Shown here: in pieces, positions 15,996-26,016 of the stretch
Numbering within the stretch: position 1 is the first letter of the stretch
How the letters are laid out: every line of letters begins with the position of its first letter
DNA from: Flavobacteriaceae bacterium
Lineage (GTDB): Bacteria > Bacteroidota > Bacteroidia > Flavobacteriales > Flavobacteriaceae
Assembly: GCA_018657955.1 (NCBI GenBank)
Contig: JABHWD010000012.1
Location: 1 to 64,000 of the forward strand
Direction of reading: 5' to 3'
DNA: 64,000 nt
Notes under the pieces: generated by a model
What the model was told of the DNA's origin: nothing
The model's input: only the letters and a program-made list of their open reading frames with translations
Database searches by the model: none
Translations under genes and position numbers: made by a program

Positions 15996-18038
15996 TTACT
16001 GAATTAGTAATTTAAAACTTTTCACACCTGTAGTTCCTTCAATATTAACAATATAGATTGAAGTTCCTAAATCTCTTAGATTAGATGTATGTACGTTACT
16101 ATTTATATTCTCTTCAAATACTTTTTGACCTAAGATGTTAAAAATTTGAATCTTTCTTAAGGTCTCATCTGATGTCATTTCCAAAGTCTTAGAACTTACA
16201 TTATAGAAATATTCAAAGTTATTTATTACACTATCTTCAATTCCTAAAGTTCCGTCAACAGTATATGAATCTGTTTGCAGCACAAAAGAATCATTTGACA
16301 TATAATGAATAGCAATTCTAATTGTTTGACCCTCATATTGACTTAAATCAAATTGATATTGTGTCCAATTAGTTGGAGCTTCAATATATGTTCCTTCAGA
16401 TATAATCGTAAAATCATTATAGTCTGTAGAATTTCCAACTCCAACTTGGAATCTTTCAAGACCGTATGTGTCATTAACTGATTTTGCCCACATACTAAAG
16501 GTTGGAGAAGTAACTCCACTTAAAGTAAATTCAGGACTTATCATCCAATCATCATTTGGAAATGTAGTTCCACTTGCACCTGATGCAAAGAAATACAATC
16601 CTTGGTTGCCTTCATATGTATCCCATGCAGATATATCACCGCCTGTTCCGGTTGCAAGTTCTTGATTATATATAATTCCTGTACCAACATAGGATTCGTT
16701 TGTAAAATCCACAGCATTAGCACCCCAAGTTGTTCCTCCATCAAGGTCATACATGACCCAATCTCCGATATCACTAATGGCAAATTCTGTATGACATTCA
16801 AAGTTGTCTCTCCATACTATTGGAAGTGAATACTCATCAGGACAGTCTCCTCCTACAATACTAGTAAAACTAGTAGAAGAGCTGTCATTACTATTATTCT
16901 CATCACTTGTCAATGATGTACTGGCTACAATTTCATAATCTCCTGGAGTTGAAAAATCATATGTAGCGTAAAAAGTGAACTGAGAAGTTTCATTAAATGC
17001 TATAGATCCAGTAAAACTTTCTGTTACAGTATTTCCACCATTAACTTGATAGGTAACATCAAAATTTGATACTGTATTTTCACCTAAGTTTTCTAATGTA
17101 ACAACAATATTTTCGTTATCAGAGTAAACTCCGTTACCTGATGGAGAATCAATACTCGTTATAGCAACATCATAATCAAGATATGAAACTGGAACCTTAT
17201 AGCCATTAATAATTTCATCACCATCTGTAATAAATGCAGCAACTTCTATTTCAGCTAGATCAACGGGTACATCATTATACATATCAGGAAGAGTATAAGT
17301 GTAGGTTCTATCAATAAAACTACCAGTTGAAGTTGTAGTAATTGCATCTCCACTAATTCCATCAACCATATCTACTAATCTATCCATATGTCTATAATCA
17401 TATTCATTATGCGCATAATTAGAATTTGGTGAACTTGAAACCACATAGCTTGGGTTATAATTTGTTCCCGTTTGTGGACCAATAGTTTCATCTTGCATTA
17501 TTGCAACATGTAAATAGTTAGTCGATTCAGGGCTACTTGCCGTATAGTATGCCTCTACATGAATTGTTAGCACATTACCAGCTAATTCTGCTTCAAGACC
17601 AACATTAACATAAGCACTCTCTTGTAAAACTTGTGAAATAGCAGTATTCCAATATCCTCTACTCATAGCAGTTCCACCTGTCATAGATAAATTACTAAAA
17701 ACTTGACGATTAACTGAAGCGGAAGGTTGTCCGTTAGCCGCTGCCATATTTCCTAATTGATTTGCAAGTGCATTATTAAAATCATGACCACCATTAGGAT
17801 CACAATCCCATGCATATCCTCCTTCATGAAATTTAATTACAAAAACATCATTAGGGTTTTGGTCAATAATTTGATTTAGCATGGCATGACCATCTGGACA
17901 ATACTGACAATGGATTGCAGTTGATTCCTCAACAATTGCATTTTTATTTTCAGGTGTTGTTGAAACGATCGTTTGTGCCGAAATATAGCCTAGAGATGAT
18001 AATAAAAGAATAAAAAGCAGAATGTATTGTTTTTTCAT
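15996..18038 (-). CDS. Secreted Omp28-type thioredoxin-like protein with T9SS sorting domain
   Basis: A 680-residue protein with a signal peptide (to about residue 22, ending GYISAQ). The Omp28-like, thioredoxin-related domain has a CxxC at C44-Q-Y-C47 and spans roughly residues 30-280. A CARDB-like Ig segment follows (EIVASTSLTSDENNSND near 370). Next is a choice-of-anchor or MAM-like jelly-roll domain that starts at GGDCPDEYSLPIVWRDNFEC. The C-terminus is a type A sorting domain (KIQIFNILGQKVFEENIN and the end SFKLLIQ). It is therefore probably exported by T9SS and anchored at or released from the surface. CxxC suggests thiol-disulfide chemistry outside the cell; the substrate is unknown. 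It is divergent from the small cargo gene at 18107. Confidence 0.82.
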   Translation of the reverse strand: MKKQYILLFILLLSSLGYISAQTIVSTTPENKNAIVEESTAIHCQYCPDGHAMLNQIIDQNPNDVFVIKFHEGGYAWDCDPNGGHDFNNALANQLGNMAAANGQPSASVNRQVFSNLSMTGGTAMSRGYWNTAISQVLQESAYVNVGLEAELAGNVLTIHVEAYYTASSPESTNYLHVAIMQDETIGPQTGTNYNPSYVVSSSPNSNYAHNEYDYRHMDRLVDMVDGISGDAITTTSTGSFIDRTYTYTLPDMYNDVPVDLAEIEVAAFITDGDEIINGYKVPVSYLDYDVAITSIDSPSGNGVYSDNENIVVTLENLGENTVSNFDVTYQVNGGNTVTESFTGSIAFNETSQFTFYATYDFSTPGDYEIVASTSLTSDENNSNDSSSTSFTSIVGGDCPDEYSLPIVWRDNFECHTEFAISDIGDWVMYDLDGGTTWGANAVDFTNESYVGTGIIYNQELATGTGGDISAWDTYEGNQGLYFFASGASGTTFPNDDWMISPEFTLSGVTSPTFSMWAKSVNDTYGLERFQVGVGNSTDYNDFTIISEGTYIEAPTNWTQYQFDLSQYEGQTIRIAIHYMSNDSFVLQTDSYTVDGTLGIEDSVINNFEYFYNVSSKTLEMTSDETLRKIQIFNILGQKVFEENINSNVHTSNLRDLGTSIYIVNIEGTTGVKSFKLLIQ

Positions 18039-18054
18039 GGAGCTTAATTTCTTT

Positions 18055-18062
18055 CAAATATA
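18055..18062 (-). promoter_or_regulatory. -7 promoter box for the secreted Omp28-type gene
   Basis: TATATTTG on the minus strand, 16 bases before the ATG at 18038. It lies within 13 bases of the oppositely directed box at 18075-18082. Confidence 0.5.
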
Positions 18063-18074
18063 AGGACTTTTGTA

Positions 18075-18082
18075 TATTTTTG
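18075..18082 (+). promoter_or_regulatory. -7 promoter box for the small T9SS cargo gene
   Basis: TATTTTTG on the plus strand, 24 bases before the ATG at 18107. It overlaps a TTG at 18080, which makes the TTG an unlikely start. Confidence 0.45.
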
Positions 18083-18106
18083 TTTTACAAACTAAAATAT
18101 ATACTT

Positions 18107-18859
18107 ATGATTAATTCCAGAATATTTCTTTTTATAGCACTTTTTTTAACTAACATATTTGTTTATTCACAGAATGAATATGCCTTTTCATTAGAAACAA
18201 CTGATGGAATTGTGATAGAGGACAATGAAGTTCTTGAATTTTCAGAAATTACATACCCGGATGCATCTTTTGATTTTTATGTAAGAAATGATACATCAGA
18301 AGCAATTAATGTAAAAATTGAAGTTGTAAGTTTTTCTGGAACCGATGGAAGTTCAATGGAATTATGTTTTGGAGAATGCTATTATGGTATAAGTGCAAAT
18401 CAAAGTTATCCATCTAATTCTTTTGTAACTATTAACCCTAATGAAACCCAATCATCATCTGGGGATCATTTTTTCAATCAAGATTCTGGAGATGGAAGTA
18501 CACCGGTAGAATACACATTTCGTTTTTATATGGTTGATGGAGACGGAAATGAGGTGGTTAGTACGGCAGAATTATTTACCGAATTATCTGTAGGATATTA
18601 TTATTCTTCTACTCTAAGTGTTGATGATTTTGATCAAATTAATGCTACATTTTCTCATTCAAATGGTATATTAAAAATACACTCTGAAAAAAAGTATCAA
18701 CTAAATATATATGACGTAAGAGGTTCTTTAATTATAGAAAAAAATATTCAAATAGGAGATAATTATATTAATTCATCAATTATACCAAATCATTTGTATT
18801 TGTTGAATTTTACACAAGAAAATGGAACTTCAATATTCAAGAAAATTATATTGAATTAA
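18107..18859 (+). CDS. Small secreted protein with T9SS sorting domain and CxxxC pair
   Basis: A 250-residue protein with a signal peptide (MINSRIFLFIALFLTNIFVY, then SQ). An Ig-like beta domain covers about residues 22-165. It contains the only two cysteines, in LCFGECYY (C87 and C91). A C-terminal type A sorting domain follows (YQLNIYDVRGSLIIEKNI to FKKIILN). The central domain is not one I recognise by family. The ATG at 18107 gives a proper signal peptide, whereas the earlier TTG at 18080 would prepend nine residues and overlaps the promoter box. It ends with a 4-base TTAA overlap with the convergent DUF6029 gene. It sits between two Omp28-type genes, so a role with those redox-like surface proteins is inferred. 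Confidence 0.7.
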   Translation: MINSRIFLFIALFLTNIFVYSQNEYAFSLETTDGIVIEDNEVLEFSEITYPDASFDFYVRNDTSEAINVKIEVVSFSGTDGSSMELCFGECYYGISANQSYPSNSFVTINPNETQSSSGDHFFNQDSGDGSTPVEYTFRFYMVDGDGNEVVSTAELFTELSVGYYYSSTLSVDDFDQINATFSHSNGILKIHSEKKYQLNIYDVRGSLIIEKNIQIGDNYINSSIIPNHLYLLNFTQENGTSIFKKIILN

Positions 18860-20499
18860 AAAGAATAACTAAGGTTTAGATTGAAGCCGTTACTCTCTGG
18901 AACATATCTACATACCCCGCCAATACATATAAGTCCACCTCTTTGTCTTCCGTAGTTAAGACTTACTCTAGTACTATTTTTTGAATAACTACCACCTAGG
19001 TTATAGTAATGTATTTTGTCAGATCTTCCGTAATTCCATCCATCTGAAACAAAAACATTTACCGATGATGAGATTCCATATTCATAAACCAATCCTAGCC
19101 AGTTTTTTCTATCATTTTTAGTCCATAAATGTTGAAGTACCCCTCTAGAAGATTTTCCATTTGCATGAAGATAATTTGCTTCAATAACTCCAACTTTTGC
19201 TTTGATATCTCCTTGAACACCAAGGGGACCACCCAATGTAATTCCCTTGTCTATAATTACATCTAAAAAGGTAATTGCTGTTCTTAATTTAGAATTCCAT
19301 CTATTTTTTATTTCCAAGTTTAAATCTCTATAATATCTATCTCCATTTCCAATAAATTTTACATCGTATGAATTATCTTGATTAAATGTGGACTCTATGC
19401 CGCTCCAGTATGAAAAATTAAAAGCAATTTTTGTCTTATATTTTCCTAGGAAATTATCTTTATCAAAGGTGTAATAAAAATCATTTTGGAAGCCTACTTC
19501 ACCTGATCTTTTTTCAATGGAATTCATTACCAATCGAGGCTGTGAATTGTATACATAAATATTTGTTAGTAGATAGTCCTGCTGTTTACTAAGAGTAGGG
19601 GTAAAGCTCAATGTTTTTTGATTATAGATATTTCCCTCTGCTAGTCTATCACTATAGAAATTAAAATTTTCTAGCCTTCTAAATGTTGTATTTATTCCAA
19701 TTCCTTTTTTTGAATATCCTAAATCTACTTGTAAGGCTGTACCATCATATAGTCTGTTAGATACTAAATTATTTTCATTGGCTATCACATCAGGATCTTT
19801 TATAACCCCTTCTATATTAAGAGAAAAGTCACCTGCATACATATTTAATCTACCGCCATAGGCTGAAACATTTGAAGGAATCGAGTCGTTTGCCCCATTC
19901 TCTTGGTATCTATTTACAATACTAGAACCAATAGACAAATCAACTTCTTTTAGATTAAGCATTTGATTTAGATTTATTTCAGTATTTAATCCTTGAATCG
20001 TTGATGCTGTGTAATTAAATCCATCTCTTTGCTGACCATACAAGGCTGTCAATTCAATATTATCCGATGGGTAATATTTTAATTTTATTCCTTTAATTGC
20101 GTTATTTATGCCTAGTTGACGATCTTCCCATGATCTAAAAATGAGTCCGTTACCAAACTGTTCATAAAAAGAACCTACCGTTATATCACTTTTCTCATTT
20201 TGAATCTTTATAAAGTAATTAGTTATTTTATTTTGATTATCGAGTTCAGGATAAAACCCTAGCAGTGAACTAGGCAAATAACCTTCGTATTGAATACCAG
20301 CTAGAATATTATTTATTTGGTAGTTTATTTGAAAATAATTATTTGATCTAAAGTTATCTTCAGGAGATATAAAATCTAATGACTGGTCATTTTGTAGTAA
20401 TTGCGAATTACTTTCAAAACTACCATAGATGTATGGCTGGTTCTGAGAAAAAATAAGTGAAGAGAAAAATAGAAATATTATGTAGAATATATTTTTCAT
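18856..20499 (-). CDS. DUF6029-type outer-membrane barrel protein with a C-terminal cysteine pair
   Basis: A 547-residue protein with a signal peptide (MKNIFYIIFLFFSSLIFSQ) and a sequence of alternating polar and hydrophobic beta strands ending in a phenylalanine (NLNLSYSF), as in outer-membrane barrels. The N-terminal YGSFESNSQLLQND and the GSFYEQFGNGLIFRSWEDRQLGI-like stretch match flavobacterial proteins annotated as DUF6029. It has exactly two cysteines, C525 and C530 in ICIGGVC, in what should be the last loop. Its start overlaps the stop of the TlpA-like gene by 4 bases (ATGA), so the two are translationally coupled. This suggests that a periplasmic thioredoxin acts on, or with, this barrel. 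No biochemical function is known to me. Confidence 0.7.
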   Translation of the reverse strand: MKNIFYIIFLFFSSLIFSQNQPYIYGSFESNSQLLQNDQSLDFISPEDNFRSNNYFQINYQINNILAGIQYEGYLPSSLLGFYPELDNQNKITNYFIKIQNEKSDITVGSFYEQFGNGLIFRSWEDRQLGINNAIKGIKLKYYPSDNIELTALYGQQRDGFNYTASTIQGLNTEINLNQMLNLKEVDLSIGSSIVNRYQENGANDSIPSNVSAYGGRLNMYAGDFSLNIEGVIKDPDVIANENNLVSNRLYDGTALQVDLGYSKKGIGINTTFRRLENFNFYSDRLAEGNIYNQKTLSFTPTLSKQQDYLLTNIYVYNSQPRLVMNSIEKRSGEVGFQNDFYYTFDKDNFLGKYKTKIAFNFSYWSGIESTFNQDNSYDVKFIGNGDRYYRDLNLEIKNRWNSKLRTAITFLDVIIDKGITLGGPLGVQGDIKAKVGVIEANYLHANGKSSRGVLQHLWTKNDRKNWLGLVYEYGISSSVNVFVSDGWNYGRSDKIHYYNLGGSYSKNSTRVSLNYGRQRGGLICIGGVCRYVPESNGFNLNLSYSF

Positions 20500-20981
20500 T
20501 CTTTGGAAAGTGTTTTGAGTTTTTCAAAAAGTTCATATTCATCACCATTTCTATAACCTGTGTGTTGATACAGAATCTTATTATTTCTAACGATTATTGT
20601 TACAGGAATAGCGGAAGCTCCTAATGACCTTTTTAAATTATGATTTGTATCTAAAAGAATATTATGTTCCCATCCTTTTCCATTAACTAATGCTTTTGCC
20701 CTGTTGATAGATCTGCTATCATCAACAGATATTGCATAAACTTCAAAATCAACTTGTGTTTTCCACTCGTCATATAATTCATTTATTGCATCCAGCTCTT
20801 TAATACACGGCACGCACCATGTTGCCCATAGGGACAAAATAGCGATCTTATCATTTGAAGTTAAATCAGCAACATTTACCTTATCCCCTTCAAATGTTTT
20901 AAGATTAATATTTGGCAGTGTTTTTTGGGAAAACCCAGCAAATGATAGTAGAAATACAGATAAGAAAATAAAATTTCTCAT
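20496..20981 (-). CDS. TlpA-like periplasmic thiol-disulfide oxidoreductase
   Basis: A 161-residue thioredoxin-fold protein with an N-terminal signal (MRNFIFLSVFLLSFAGFSQ). The active site is WATWCVPC (C56 and C59), and the cis-proline is in GASAIPVTIIV. It keeps the insert IAILSLWATW and the YDEWKTQVDFEVYAISVDD segment of the TlpA/ResA group. It would act in the periplasm as a thiol reductant for specific clients. It is the first gene of a two-gene unit with the DUF6029 barrel (4-base overlap) and is preceded by a TATCTTTG box at 20998-21005. It is divergent from the Omp28-type lipoprotein. Confidence 0.9.
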   Translation of the reverse strand: MRNFIFLSVFLLSFAGFSQKTLPNINLKTFEGDKVNVADLTSNDKIAILSLWATWCVPCIKELDAINELYDEWKTQVDFEVYAISVDDSRSINRAKALVNGKGWEHNILLDTNHNLKRSLGASAIPVTIIVRNNKILYQHTGYRNGDEYELFEKLKTLSKE

Positions 20982-20997
20982 ATGATATAATTTATTG

Positions 20998-21005
20998 CAA
21001 AGATA
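20998..21005 (-). promoter_or_regulatory. -7 promoter box for the TlpA-DUF6029 unit
   Basis: TATCTTTG on the minus strand, 16 bases before the TlpA ATG at 20981. Confidence 0.5.
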
Positions 21006-21046
21006 GTTTTGTTTTTAATTATAATTATAATTATTTCAAAAATATG

Positions 21047-21054
21047 TAAATTTG
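21047..21054 (+). promoter_or_regulatory. -7 promoter box for the Omp28-type lipoprotein
   Basis: TAAATTTG on the plus strand, 21 bases before the ATG at 21076. Confidence 0.45.
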
Positions 21055-21075
21055 ACTCCAGCTTAAGTAATTTTT

Positions 21076-22113
21076 ATGAACTCATTTCTAAAGTATCCTG
21101 CAATTTTATTAATGCTCATTGTAACATTGAGTTGTAGTAGGACTGAATCTTTTTTTTATGAAGTTGTTGAGCCTGAAATTGTAACAGGCTTAGTAGTTTA
21201 TCCATCATATTTAAGAAATCAAGAGATCACTTTTGAAGTATTTGATGCAGAGGGAAACAACATCACAATGGATTCTAATTTTATTGTTGATGGAGTATCA
21301 ATTGTGGGAAATCAAATCAGTTATCCTGAAATAGGCACTCATCAGGTATATGCGGAATATAGTATTGAATCAACAGTCTATAATAGTGATACAAGAACAT
21401 TTAATATTGTTATTCCTAAAACACGGGTTGTATTAGAAGATTATACTGGTACATGGTGCGGATATTGTCCTAATGTTAGCCATGCTATTGAAGAAATACG
21501 AATGATTACTGATGATATTTCAGTTGTAGCCATACACTATGCGGATGAAATGACAATTTCACCAGGATTAGATCTTATAAATGAATTTAATATCACCGGT
21601 TACCCAACTGCAAGAATAAATAGAACAGTGGATTGGTCCTATCCTTATGGTTCAAGCCAAATTGAATCACTAATTGAGACAGATAATTCAATTGCTATTT
21701 CAATTGACAGCCATATGATTGACATGAGTATGTTGCAAGTTCAGCTTAGGGTTGTTTCTGAGGAAGATCTAAGTGATCACAAAGTAATTGCCTATTTAGT
21801 AGAGGATAATCTAATCTATGACCAGACCAATTATTATAATTACGATGAGAATAGTTACTTTTTTGGAATGGGAAATCCAATAGTAAATTTTGTTCATAAT
21901 GATGTGTTACGACACTCATTTACTGATGCTTTAGGAAATCCTATGGAGAATCCAACTCCTGCATTAAACGATACTTTTTTTAATTATTCTTTTGAAATTG
22001 ATTCGGGACATACTCTTGCCAATCTAGGAATAGTTGTTATGATAGTAAATCAGAATAATACAGCAATTAATTCACAATTTTCAGAAATAAATTATTTCCA
22101 GGATTTTAATTAG
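21076..22113 (+). CDS. Omp28-type thioredoxin-like lipoprotein
   Basis: A 345-residue lipoprotein. The lipobox VTLSC puts the lipidated cysteine at residue 20. An Ig-like domain covers about residues 30-115. It is followed by an Omp28-type thioredoxin-like domain with VVLEDYTGTWCGYCPNV, where the CxxC is C128-G-Y-C131, and FNITGYPTARINR, where the proline occupies the cis-proline position. No T9SS sorting domain is present, so it should stay membrane-anchored, unlike the larger Omp28-type cargo at 15996-18038. It is divergent from the TlpA-DUF6029 unit and abuts the convergent pruA stop with no gap. A role in thiol handling at the outer membrane is inferred. Confidence 0.8.
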   Translation: MNSFLKYPAILLMLIVTLSCSRTESFFYEVVEPEIVTGLVVYPSYLRNQEITFEVFDAEGNNITMDSNFIVDGVSIVGNQISYPEIGTHQVYAEYSIESTVYNSDTRTFNIVIPKTRVVLEDYTGTWCGYCPNVSHAIEEIRMITDDISVVAIHYADEMTISPGLDLINEFNITGYPTARINRTVDWSYPYGSSQIESLIETDNSIAISIDSHMIDMSMLQVQLRVVSEEDLSDHKVIAYLVEDNLIYDQTNYYNYDENSYFFGMGNPIVNFVHNDVLRHSFTDALGNPMENPTPALNDTFFNYSFEIDSGHTLANLGIVVMIVNQNNTAINSQFSEINYFQDFN

Positions 22114-24672: not shown

Positions 24673-25941
24673 TTAGTTGGTAATATTTATGGAACTGGCT
24701 TGGCCCATACCAATAACCCTGTCATACCTATATCCATAACCTCTATAGTATATTAATACTTTATAATCATTTTCAGTTTCATCATAATTTCCACTTACTC
24801 CACCTTGATTAATTTCATCATACTCATTTACCAATACATACTTATAATTGTAAAAACCTTGTTTTAGCTTTAGAATTAATTGATATGAATCTAAAGAACT
24901 ATTATATGTCATTTTATATTTAGGCTGTATGCTATAATTATTAAAAGCGCCTACTATATATATTGATTCACTGGGTCTATTAGTGCTATTCTTTAATGAA
25001 AAGTGAATATTTACATAGTCAGCTTCAATATCAATATCATCAGCATTTAAAGCTGTTGTTAAAAAGCCTCCATTAATATCTGGATTGTATGTATAGGAGT
25101 TATTAAACCTATGGTAATCAGTAAACAGATAGTTATGATAGATATCATAAAGATTAAAGGTCCTAATATTAAGATTTGAACTTCTTATTTCTTTGTTTTC
25201 AAAAAACAGATATTCATTTCCACCCCAGAAACTCGACTCTTCATCGTATTTGAAAATTAATTTAGAGCCAATGGTATATTGAGCCTTTAAATTACTAATA
25301 GAAGTGCTTAGATTATTGTTCTGAATGATTAAAGTTCTTACTGTGTTTTTTGGATTATTTAATTGAATTGTTACTGGATTTACTTCAAAATTTACTGATT
25401 GTTTAGTATGTATATATTTTAAATTTCTTAGTCTTTTTATTTGTGTTGGAACTGTTGTTATGCTCTCATAGACAATAAATTTTCTACTAAAAATAATATT
25501 TCCATATTCATCATATATTTTTAGAATATAATTTCCAGATTTTATAATTCTAACATCTTGATTTGGTATTTCAAGTTTGTAATGAGAATACATCTGATAA
25601 GTATTAAAAGATGTTTTATAGTTTTGAATTTTAATATTATCAAATCCTCTTAAATATTCTGATTTAATTAACTGAGATTTAGACCAATCAAAATTTAGCT
25701 GATCAATTGTATAGTAGTAATCTTCCTCCTCATTATTAAGTACATCAAAATCTAGAGTAAACCTTTCTCCAAGTTTTATTACAGGAAGATTAGTTGAATA
25801 GTTTTCTTGATTGGTTGTAAAGCTAACTGTATTAATATATTCTGGAGGATTTAACTCTTTTTCAATTTGACCAAATATTGGATTAATTATTAAAAAGTTT
25901 AGACAAACCAATAGAAACATAAACTTATATAAATCAATCAT
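24673..25941 (-). CDS. T9SS Plug-type protein (DUF5103)
   Basis: About 422 residues, with a signal peptide (MIDLYKFMFLLVCLNFLIIN, cut near FGQ). Beta-rich domains include the family stretch LNFDWSKSQLIKSEYLRGFD, NPKNTVRTLIIQNN, DGGFYSRN-type region NPDINGGFLTTA, and an E-set-like C-terminal part (YIVGAFNNYSIQ, ending MGQASSINITN). This fits DUF5103. One member was found as the Plug protein closing the SprA translocon of T9SS in Flavobacterium johnsoniae. An in-frame ATG at 25974 could add 11 residues, but the signal peptide is cleaner from 25941. It is divergent from nqrA. Confidence 0.8.
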   Translation of the reverse strand: MIDLYKFMFLLVCLNFLIINPIFGQIEKELNPPEYINTVSFTTNQENYSTNLPVIKLGERFTLDFDVLNNEEEDYYYTIDQLNFDWSKSQLIKSEYLRGFDNIKIQNYKTSFNTYQMYSHYKLEIPNQDVRIIKSGNYILKIYDEYGNIIFSRKFIVYESITTVPTQIKRLRNLKYIHTKQSVNFEVNPVTIQLNNPKNTVRTLIIQNNNLSTSISNLKAQYTIGSKLIFKYDEESSFWGGNEYLFFENKEIRSSNLNIRTFNLYDIYHNYLFTDYHRFNNSYTYNPDINGGFLTTALNADDIDIEADYVNIHFSLKNSTNRPSESIYIVGAFNNYSIQPKYKMTYNSSLDSYQLILKLKQGFYNYKYVLVNEYDEINQGGVSGNYDETENDYKVLIYYRGYGYRYDRVIGMGQASSINITN

Positions 25942-26016
25942 ATTTAAGGGCAGTGTTATACTAATTATTTTCATTAAAAATAATCAAAAAATATTGTAAA
26001 ATCTTTAATATTGATT

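Follow-up and report, generated by a model that had tools for sequence, protein, structure and literature searches.

To our knowledge, the thiol-redox pathways described in bacteria so far stop in the periplasm, and the cell exterior is generally regarded as lacking a thiol-borne supply of reducing power. The reductive pathways that lead from DsbD or CcdA to TlpA, ResA or DsbE (TIGR00385, NF002854) have their end point there. Porin-cytochrome conduits such as MtrCAB of Shewanella combine a periplasmic redox carrier, a large barrel and a surface lipoprotein carrier, and MtrC also bears a redox-active cysteine pair (PMC9973256). In Porphyromonas gingivalis, the surface protein HBP35, exported by the type IX secretion system (T9SS), has measured thioredoxin activity; its abstract describes no barrel partner (PMC2907840). 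Here we analyze five consecutive genes in a 64,000-nucleotide stretch from a Flavobacteriaceae bacterium (contig JABHWD010000012.1, positions 1 to 64,000; ‘the window’). They encode an Omp28-type protein with a T9SS sorting tail, a small T9SS cargo, an outer-membrane barrel of the DUF6029 family, a TlpA-like thioredoxin and an Omp28-type lipoprotein. The TlpA-like protein is of the same superfamily as the carriers of the DsbD/CcdA pathways, but the proposed client is a cysteine pair in the outer-membrane barrel, with surface thioredoxins beyond it. The apparent likeness to MtrCAB is one of layout only: the five proteins contain no CxxCH heme motif, the barrel belongs to another family, and the carriers are thioredoxin folds. 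HBP35 is likewise a surface thioredoxin exported by T9SS, but a different protein.

The block in the window is one instance of a module that recurs across Bacteroidota sensu lato. TlpA, DUF6029, an Omp28 or other surface thioredoxin-like protein and T9SS cargo bearing a cysteine pair form one evolutionary unit, in which the cysteines are strictly kept. A reading of the block made from sequence only (the sequence-only reading) had suggested that electrons or disulfides pass from the periplasm through the barrel to surface and secreted proteins. The functional unit is upheld by co-occurrence, co-loss and gene fusions; passage through the barrel stays conjectural. Thus, the module itself is well supported, and for its function we infer a dedicated thiol relay at the outer membrane, from TlpA through the barrel to thioredoxin-like proteins that are surface-bound or secreted, which we regard as quite possible if short of probable.

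The host genome is 1.44 Mb (84.5% complete), and the named relatives that turn up alongside it are Flavobacteriaceae and other marine flavobacteria. The five open reading frames are consecutive and lie where the sequence-only reading placed them, and translation and profile searches bear out the earlier cysteine counts and domain calls (two Omp28 proteins, DUF6029, a TlpA-like protein, and T9SS tails on genes 1 and 2). A single operon is ruled out by the presence of genes on both strands, in the order -, +, -, -, +. The only overlapping same-strand pair is DUF6029 and tlpA, by 4 bp; the gene for the Omp28-T9SS protein diverges from the cargo gene across 68 bp, and tlpA from the Omp28 lipoprotein gene across 94 bp. 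Both Omp28 proteins of the genome are encoded inside the block, which is flanked by the housekeeping genes rsmG on one side and L-glutamate gamma-semialdehyde dehydrogenase (P5C dehydrogenase) on the other.

A gene-neighborhood comparison, proposed with the sequence-only reading, showed that the association of DUF6029, TlpA and Omp28 is conserved far beyond close relatives. We collected 200 DUF6029 loci; 190 remained after removal of duplicates, and 187 could be assessed for tlpA. Neighbors were counted by scanning all open reading frames; long antisense frames in the gene calling hid some tlpA genes. In 176 of the 187 loci the barrel gene has a TlpA-family gene as its immediate neighbor, either upstream and co-oriented or divergent, or is fused to one. 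These are 113/114 loci of the same family, 33/41 of other lineages, 12/12 of Balneola-like (our presumption for family f23) and similar distant lineages, and 18/20 of family f4. The background is far lower, with 15 TlpA-family genes among the 1022 genes that lie more than five genes from DUF6029 in these loci (1.5%), so the association is far beyond chance. The two genes share a strand or, in families f4 and f5, diverge, indicating that their adjacency is not mere operon inertia. Every barrel-adjacent TlpA protein carries CxxC. In the TlpA tree, 52 barrel-adjacent proteins and 2 fused domains fall into one group (support 99/98) with no unlinked TlpA inside, and the barrel-adjacent label changes 5 times over the whole tree, compared with 35 in shuffles. 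The deeper joins are too weak to show that every barrel-adjacent TlpA protein goes back to one origin.

In two species of one genus, TlpA and DUF6029 are fused in frame (L084:8530-10533 and L215:6992-9028). Signal peptide, WCVPC-bearing TlpA domain and complete barrel form a single frame in each; both cysteine pairs are kept and there is no second signal peptide. Only about 10 residues, as judged by eye, separate the last helix of TlpA from strand 1 of the barrel, so that TlpA comes to lie at the barrel's periplasmic mouth.

The Omp28 proteins follow the barrel in presence and in loss. Among 296 genomes sampled across the phylum, 58 encode both Omp28 and DUF6029, 4 Omp28 only, 22 DUF6029 only and 212 neither (Fisher 4e-38); the corresponding numbers among 250 genomes of the window's family are 45, 3, 5 and 197 (Fisher 3e-40). 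These tests overstate the significance because genomes are treated as independent. The two proteins are also concordant within single families (in f16, for example, 7 genomes have both and 9 neither, n=16), with a product of within-family probabilities of 5e-15 that serves as a guide and is not a corrected P value. Such recurrent gain and loss within families upholds the co-occurrence despite kinship. All three Omp28-only genomes of the window's family have lost tlpA-DUF6029 and retain only remnants at the site flanked by rsmG and the P5C dehydrogenase gene; in two of the DUF6029-only genomes only the last 35-86 codons of DUF6029 are left. A decayed block with Omp28 or DUF6029 remnants only was seen at the rsmG/P5C dehydrogenase site in loci L235, L236, L237, L238 and L240. 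Most DUF6029-only genomes of the phylum belong to f23 (loci L118, L120, L122, L126), where Omp28 is absent and two proteins come after the barrel, a lipoprotein and one with a T9SS-like tail, both TlpA-like thioredoxin folds with CPHC-type motifs. This is an independent swap of the surface thioredoxin.

The position of Omp28 also varies: in Flavobacteriaceae it diverges from tlpA, and other lineages have it immediately after the barrel gene. This indicates that the association has survived rearrangement. In L080, L086, L088, L113 and L130, Omp28 lies directly downstream of DUF6029 and no tlpA is found nearby within the locus. The small cargo occurs in 29 of the 250 family genomes, all 29 of which have DUF6029 (9e-25); in several genomes cargo and barrel are on different contigs, so linkage alone does not explain their co-occurrence. 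Synteny inertia as the whole cause is ruled out by the within-family concordance, the differing arrangements and these separate contigs.

The DUF6029 protein has 547 residues and matches the profile PF19494 over its full length (positions 1-538 of 538, 608 bits, E 1e-182, above cut-off). Its only cysteines are C525 and C530. The CxxxxC motif is present in 187/187 unique copies that reach the C-terminus, out of 190 distinct loci; of the remaining three, one is cut at a contig end and two are N-terminal pieces of split genes. In a first set the pair was found in 99/99 copies, with no other conserved cysteines, and at a mean identity of 27% the two cysteines are 2 of the 10 invariant alignment columns. 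An AlphaFold2 (AF2) model built with 72 sequences is a confident barrel (predicted local distance difference test, pLDDT, 90.9; predicted template modeling score 0.84). The DSSP string of the model gives 24 strands, with 12 longer and 11 short loops in alternation, which places both termini in the periplasm and the cysteine loop outside. C525 lies opposite C530 on a hairpin with a two-residue turn; in the model the pair would, if oxidized, form a cross-strand disulfide. Such disulfides are described as a metastable class, often redox-active or redox-prone (PMC4354306). Conservation peaks at the cysteine loop (3.2 bits) and at loop 112-134 (3.0 bits), compared with 2.06 bits in the strands. Loops more conserved than strands are the reverse of the usual porin pattern.

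The main rival to the relay is a structural or biogenesis role, which we consider somewhat unlikely. Here C525-C530 would be a structural bond that TlpA makes or corrects in the periplasm before or during insertion, no electrons would cross the barrel, and the Omp28 proteins would act as surface disulfide isomerases for secreted proteins. Invariant cysteine pairs, seen in both barrel and cargo, are often the case for structural disulfides; the tlpA-DUF6029 overlap and the fusions would suit a private folding helper, and Omp28 has a domain resembling protein disulfide isomerase (PDI). However, a barrel with only two cysteines, four residues apart, has no need of an isomerase, and TlpA relatives are as a rule reductants. 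Nor would a biogenesis role account for the way in which Omp28 and the cargo are present and lost together with the barrel.

Alternatively, the barrel could transport a substrate of thiol chemistry (a metal such as copper, or a thiol compound) or a polysaccharide, with the thioredoxin-like proteins handling the substrate or its binding sites on each side. The strong conservation of the outward loops is compatible with this, as is a loose resemblance in fold to transport barrels, among them the copper channel OprC, and TlpA-type reductants act in copper-site maturation in other bacteria. The fold matches are generic, however, with template modeling (TM) scores of 0.3-0.5, the best being the PapC/FimD ushers (TM 0.38-0.50). 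A PDB sequence search returned no solved relative of the barrel; its RecA matches had no passing stretch and were judged artefacts. A search of a viral library for fold relatives gave nothing useful. The only DUF6029 literature that we found places DUF6029-like matches among Wzi-type barrels, for which a part in polysaccharide export is proposed from similarity alone, and its available text makes no mention of the cysteine pair or of TlpA (PMC9603273); gene 3 is a full-length member of this family. Wzi-type neighbors occur in a few loci, but in the sampled flanks the widely recurring neighbors include CxxC proteins and no metal, sugar or export family. We regard transport as improbable. Apart from Wzi-type proteins (PF14052) in 3/64 scanned flanking genes, no OPX or polysaccharide neighbor recurs. 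In family f24 (L090, L091, L093, L095, L096), a protein of about 550 residues recurs on the opposite strand beyond Omp28, and the Wzi-type matches may be these proteins.

The relay would begin with TlpA. This protein of 161 residues, with C56VPC59 as its only cysteines, belongs to the AhpC-TSA/ResA-TlpA-like group (PF00578, E 1e-18; WCVPC motif) and scores below the cut-offs of the curated TlpA/ResA/DsbE models (61.5 vs 230, 59.2 vs 170 and 41.7 vs 123 bits). Both TlpA and the barrel have Sec-type signal peptides, as read by eye. TlpA might be recharged from the cytoplasm by a DsbD/CcdA-type protein, and two DsbD_TM proteins in the window genome are a possible source of reductant. Once reduced, TlpA would dock on the periplasmic side of the 24-strand barrel, under its mouth or inside it, and reduce the hairpin pair, the electrons going on via the strained C525-C530 disulfide at the outward end. 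A surface-anchored Omp28 lipoprotein may accept them and pass them to clients outside the cell, which would be the Omp28 protein exported by T9SS, the cargo with CFGEC and, perhaps, surface disulfides that have been damaged.

The two Omp28 proteins are members of PF11551 (cut-off 34.9 bits; gene 1, 45.1 bits, E 1e-11; gene 5, 79.9 bits, E 3e-22) that lie below the NCBIfam subfamily cut-offs (NF033782, NF045500), with 55.5 and 52.8 bits against the 150 of lipoprot_Omp28, NF033782. The Omp28-T9SS protein (680 residues) has C44QYC47 together with C79, C399 and C415; the lipoprotein (345 residues) has the lipobox cysteine C20 and C128GYC131. The lipoprotein also scores above cut-off for Thioredoxin (PF00085), and its N-terminal domain is PDI/thioredoxin-like, with PDIA4 as best PDB relative (E 1e-10). 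Nearly all neighboring Omp28 proteins contain CxxC, and an Omp28 relative in NCBIfam is named a selenoprotein, so that the motif points to catalysis. Among lipobox-bearing Omp28 proteins, 83/101 have at least 2 acidic residues at positions +2 to +8 (CSKKEE, CSRTED and CSSSDD, for example), a stretch resembling the lipoprotein surface export signals K-(D/E)2 and SDDFE (PMC5080379). The window lipoprotein, with CSRTES, is a weak match. Genome G230 encodes, 3' of DUF6029 in L097, a double-domain Omp28 protein of 689 residues with two CxxC motifs.

The small cargo begins at an ATG at 18107 and has 250 residues, with C87 and C91 as its only cysteines. These are invariant in 37 aligned relatives and kept in 90-91/91 homologous stretches; the pairs whose conservation the sequence-only reading had made one of its tests are thus invariant in both the DUF6029 and the cargo families. 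Of the two outcomes that it had named as refuting it, a neighborhood confined to close relatives and unconserved pairs, neither was observed. The AF2 model (pLDDT 89.6) shows an immunoglobulin-like (Ig-like) domain and a T9SS tail, and a fold search matched only Ig-like pairs and T9SS tail domains. Genes 1 and 2 reach the cut-off of the T9SS type A domain TIGR04183 (30.5 and 24.7 bits; cut-off 23) and lie slightly below that of Pfam Por_Secre_tail, making them predicted cargo. A cargo relative at L105:6863-8350 (-) has three cysteine-pair domains (C73/C77, C201/C205, C329/C333) and a T9SS tail. The T9SS translocon is present in the window genome (G000; SprA_N, E 2e-125).

That cargo and Omp28-T9SS proteins combine T9SS tails with cysteine pairs, and that SprA is found in 79/80 DUF6029 genomes of the phylum sample, could also fit surface anchoring, with the outward CxxxxC holding secreted proteins by mixed disulfides and the thioredoxin-like proteins loading or releasing them. 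However, more than half of the DUF6029 loci have no small cargo, and G230, the exception to SprA, has barrel and Omp28 with no SprA detected. We regard anchoring as very unlikely.

Several points weigh against the relay. The redox or transport activity of every member is putative, and invariance of the cysteines alone also fits a structural disulfide. As the pair faces outward, either TlpA has to reach into the wide lumen or the loop has to bend inward for the two to react; the distance between TlpA and the pair is the weak step of the proposed pathway. Eleven of the 187 loci have no adjacent tlpA, 10 of them still with Omp28 near. That no VKOR or DsbB was detected in the window genome speaks for the relay, but weakly, because the assembly is 84.5% complete. 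Coordinates of the block are collected in Table 1.

Table 1. Genes, motifs and intergenic region of the block, in window positions.
Feature	Position	Strand	Basis
Omp28-type thioredoxin-like secreted protein, CQYC and T9SS type A tail	15996..18038	-	PF11551, TIGR04183
T9SS C-terminal sorting domain of Omp28-T9SS protein, residues 623-679	15999..16172	-	profile matches
CQYC motif (C44-C47) of Omp28-T9SS protein	17898..17909	-	translation
Small T9SS cargo, Ig-like domain with C87/C91, then sorting tail	18107..18859	+	alignment, AF2
CFGEC motif (C87-C91) of small cargo	18365..18379	+	translation, homologue alignment
DUF6029 outer-membrane barrel, ~24 strands	18856..20499	-	PF19494, AF2
Last outward barrel loop, residues 520-535, C525-x4-C530 hairpin	18895..18942	-	187/187 copies
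TlpA/ResA-like soluble periplasmic thioredoxin, 4 bp overlap with DUF6029 start	20496..20981	-	profiles
CVPC active-site motif of TlpA (C56-C59)	20805..20816	-	translation
Divergent intergenic region, 94 bp, common to tlpA-DUF6029 and Omp28 lipoprotein gene	20982..21075	.	sequence
Omp28-type lipoprotein, PDI/thioredoxin-like domain, CGYC	21076..22113	+	PF11551, PF00085
CGYC motif (C128-C131) of Omp28 lipoprotein	21457..21468	+	translation

On both strands of the 94-bp region we picked out by eye what we take to be TAnnTTTG-like motifs. Near the block, the window also encodes a T9SS plug-type protein (PF17116, E 5e-39; 24673-25974, -), and such a protein lies near the block in a few relatives (L054, L058, L061, L062).

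As a kind, the outer-membrane thiol module appears to be new; the protein families that compose it are already known. In line with the sequence-only reading, no described system of this kind was found in the literature searched, which was mainly open-access, and a report elsewhere is possible; nothing joining DUF6029 with TlpA or Omp28 was found in that search, which left subscription journals largely outside. Going further, the module could be the first outer-membrane thiol conduit, a heme-free counterpart of the porin-cytochrome systems across Bacteroidota in which the barrel's cross-strand disulfide relays reducing power; we hold this to be possible but doubtful.

The strictly kept cysteine pairs raise the prospect that many Bacteroidota may supply their cell surface with thiol redox power across the outer membrane. 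If so, a phylum-wide module that is retained or lost as a whole, and that has thioredoxins on either side of a barrel, would change the view that thiol-borne reduction is confined to the periplasm. DUF6029, treated in a single paper of the literature searched, and the widely annotated Omp28 gain a shared role that can be tested, and the module makes it possible to ask by simple genetics whether T9SS-secreted proteins are under redox control after export.

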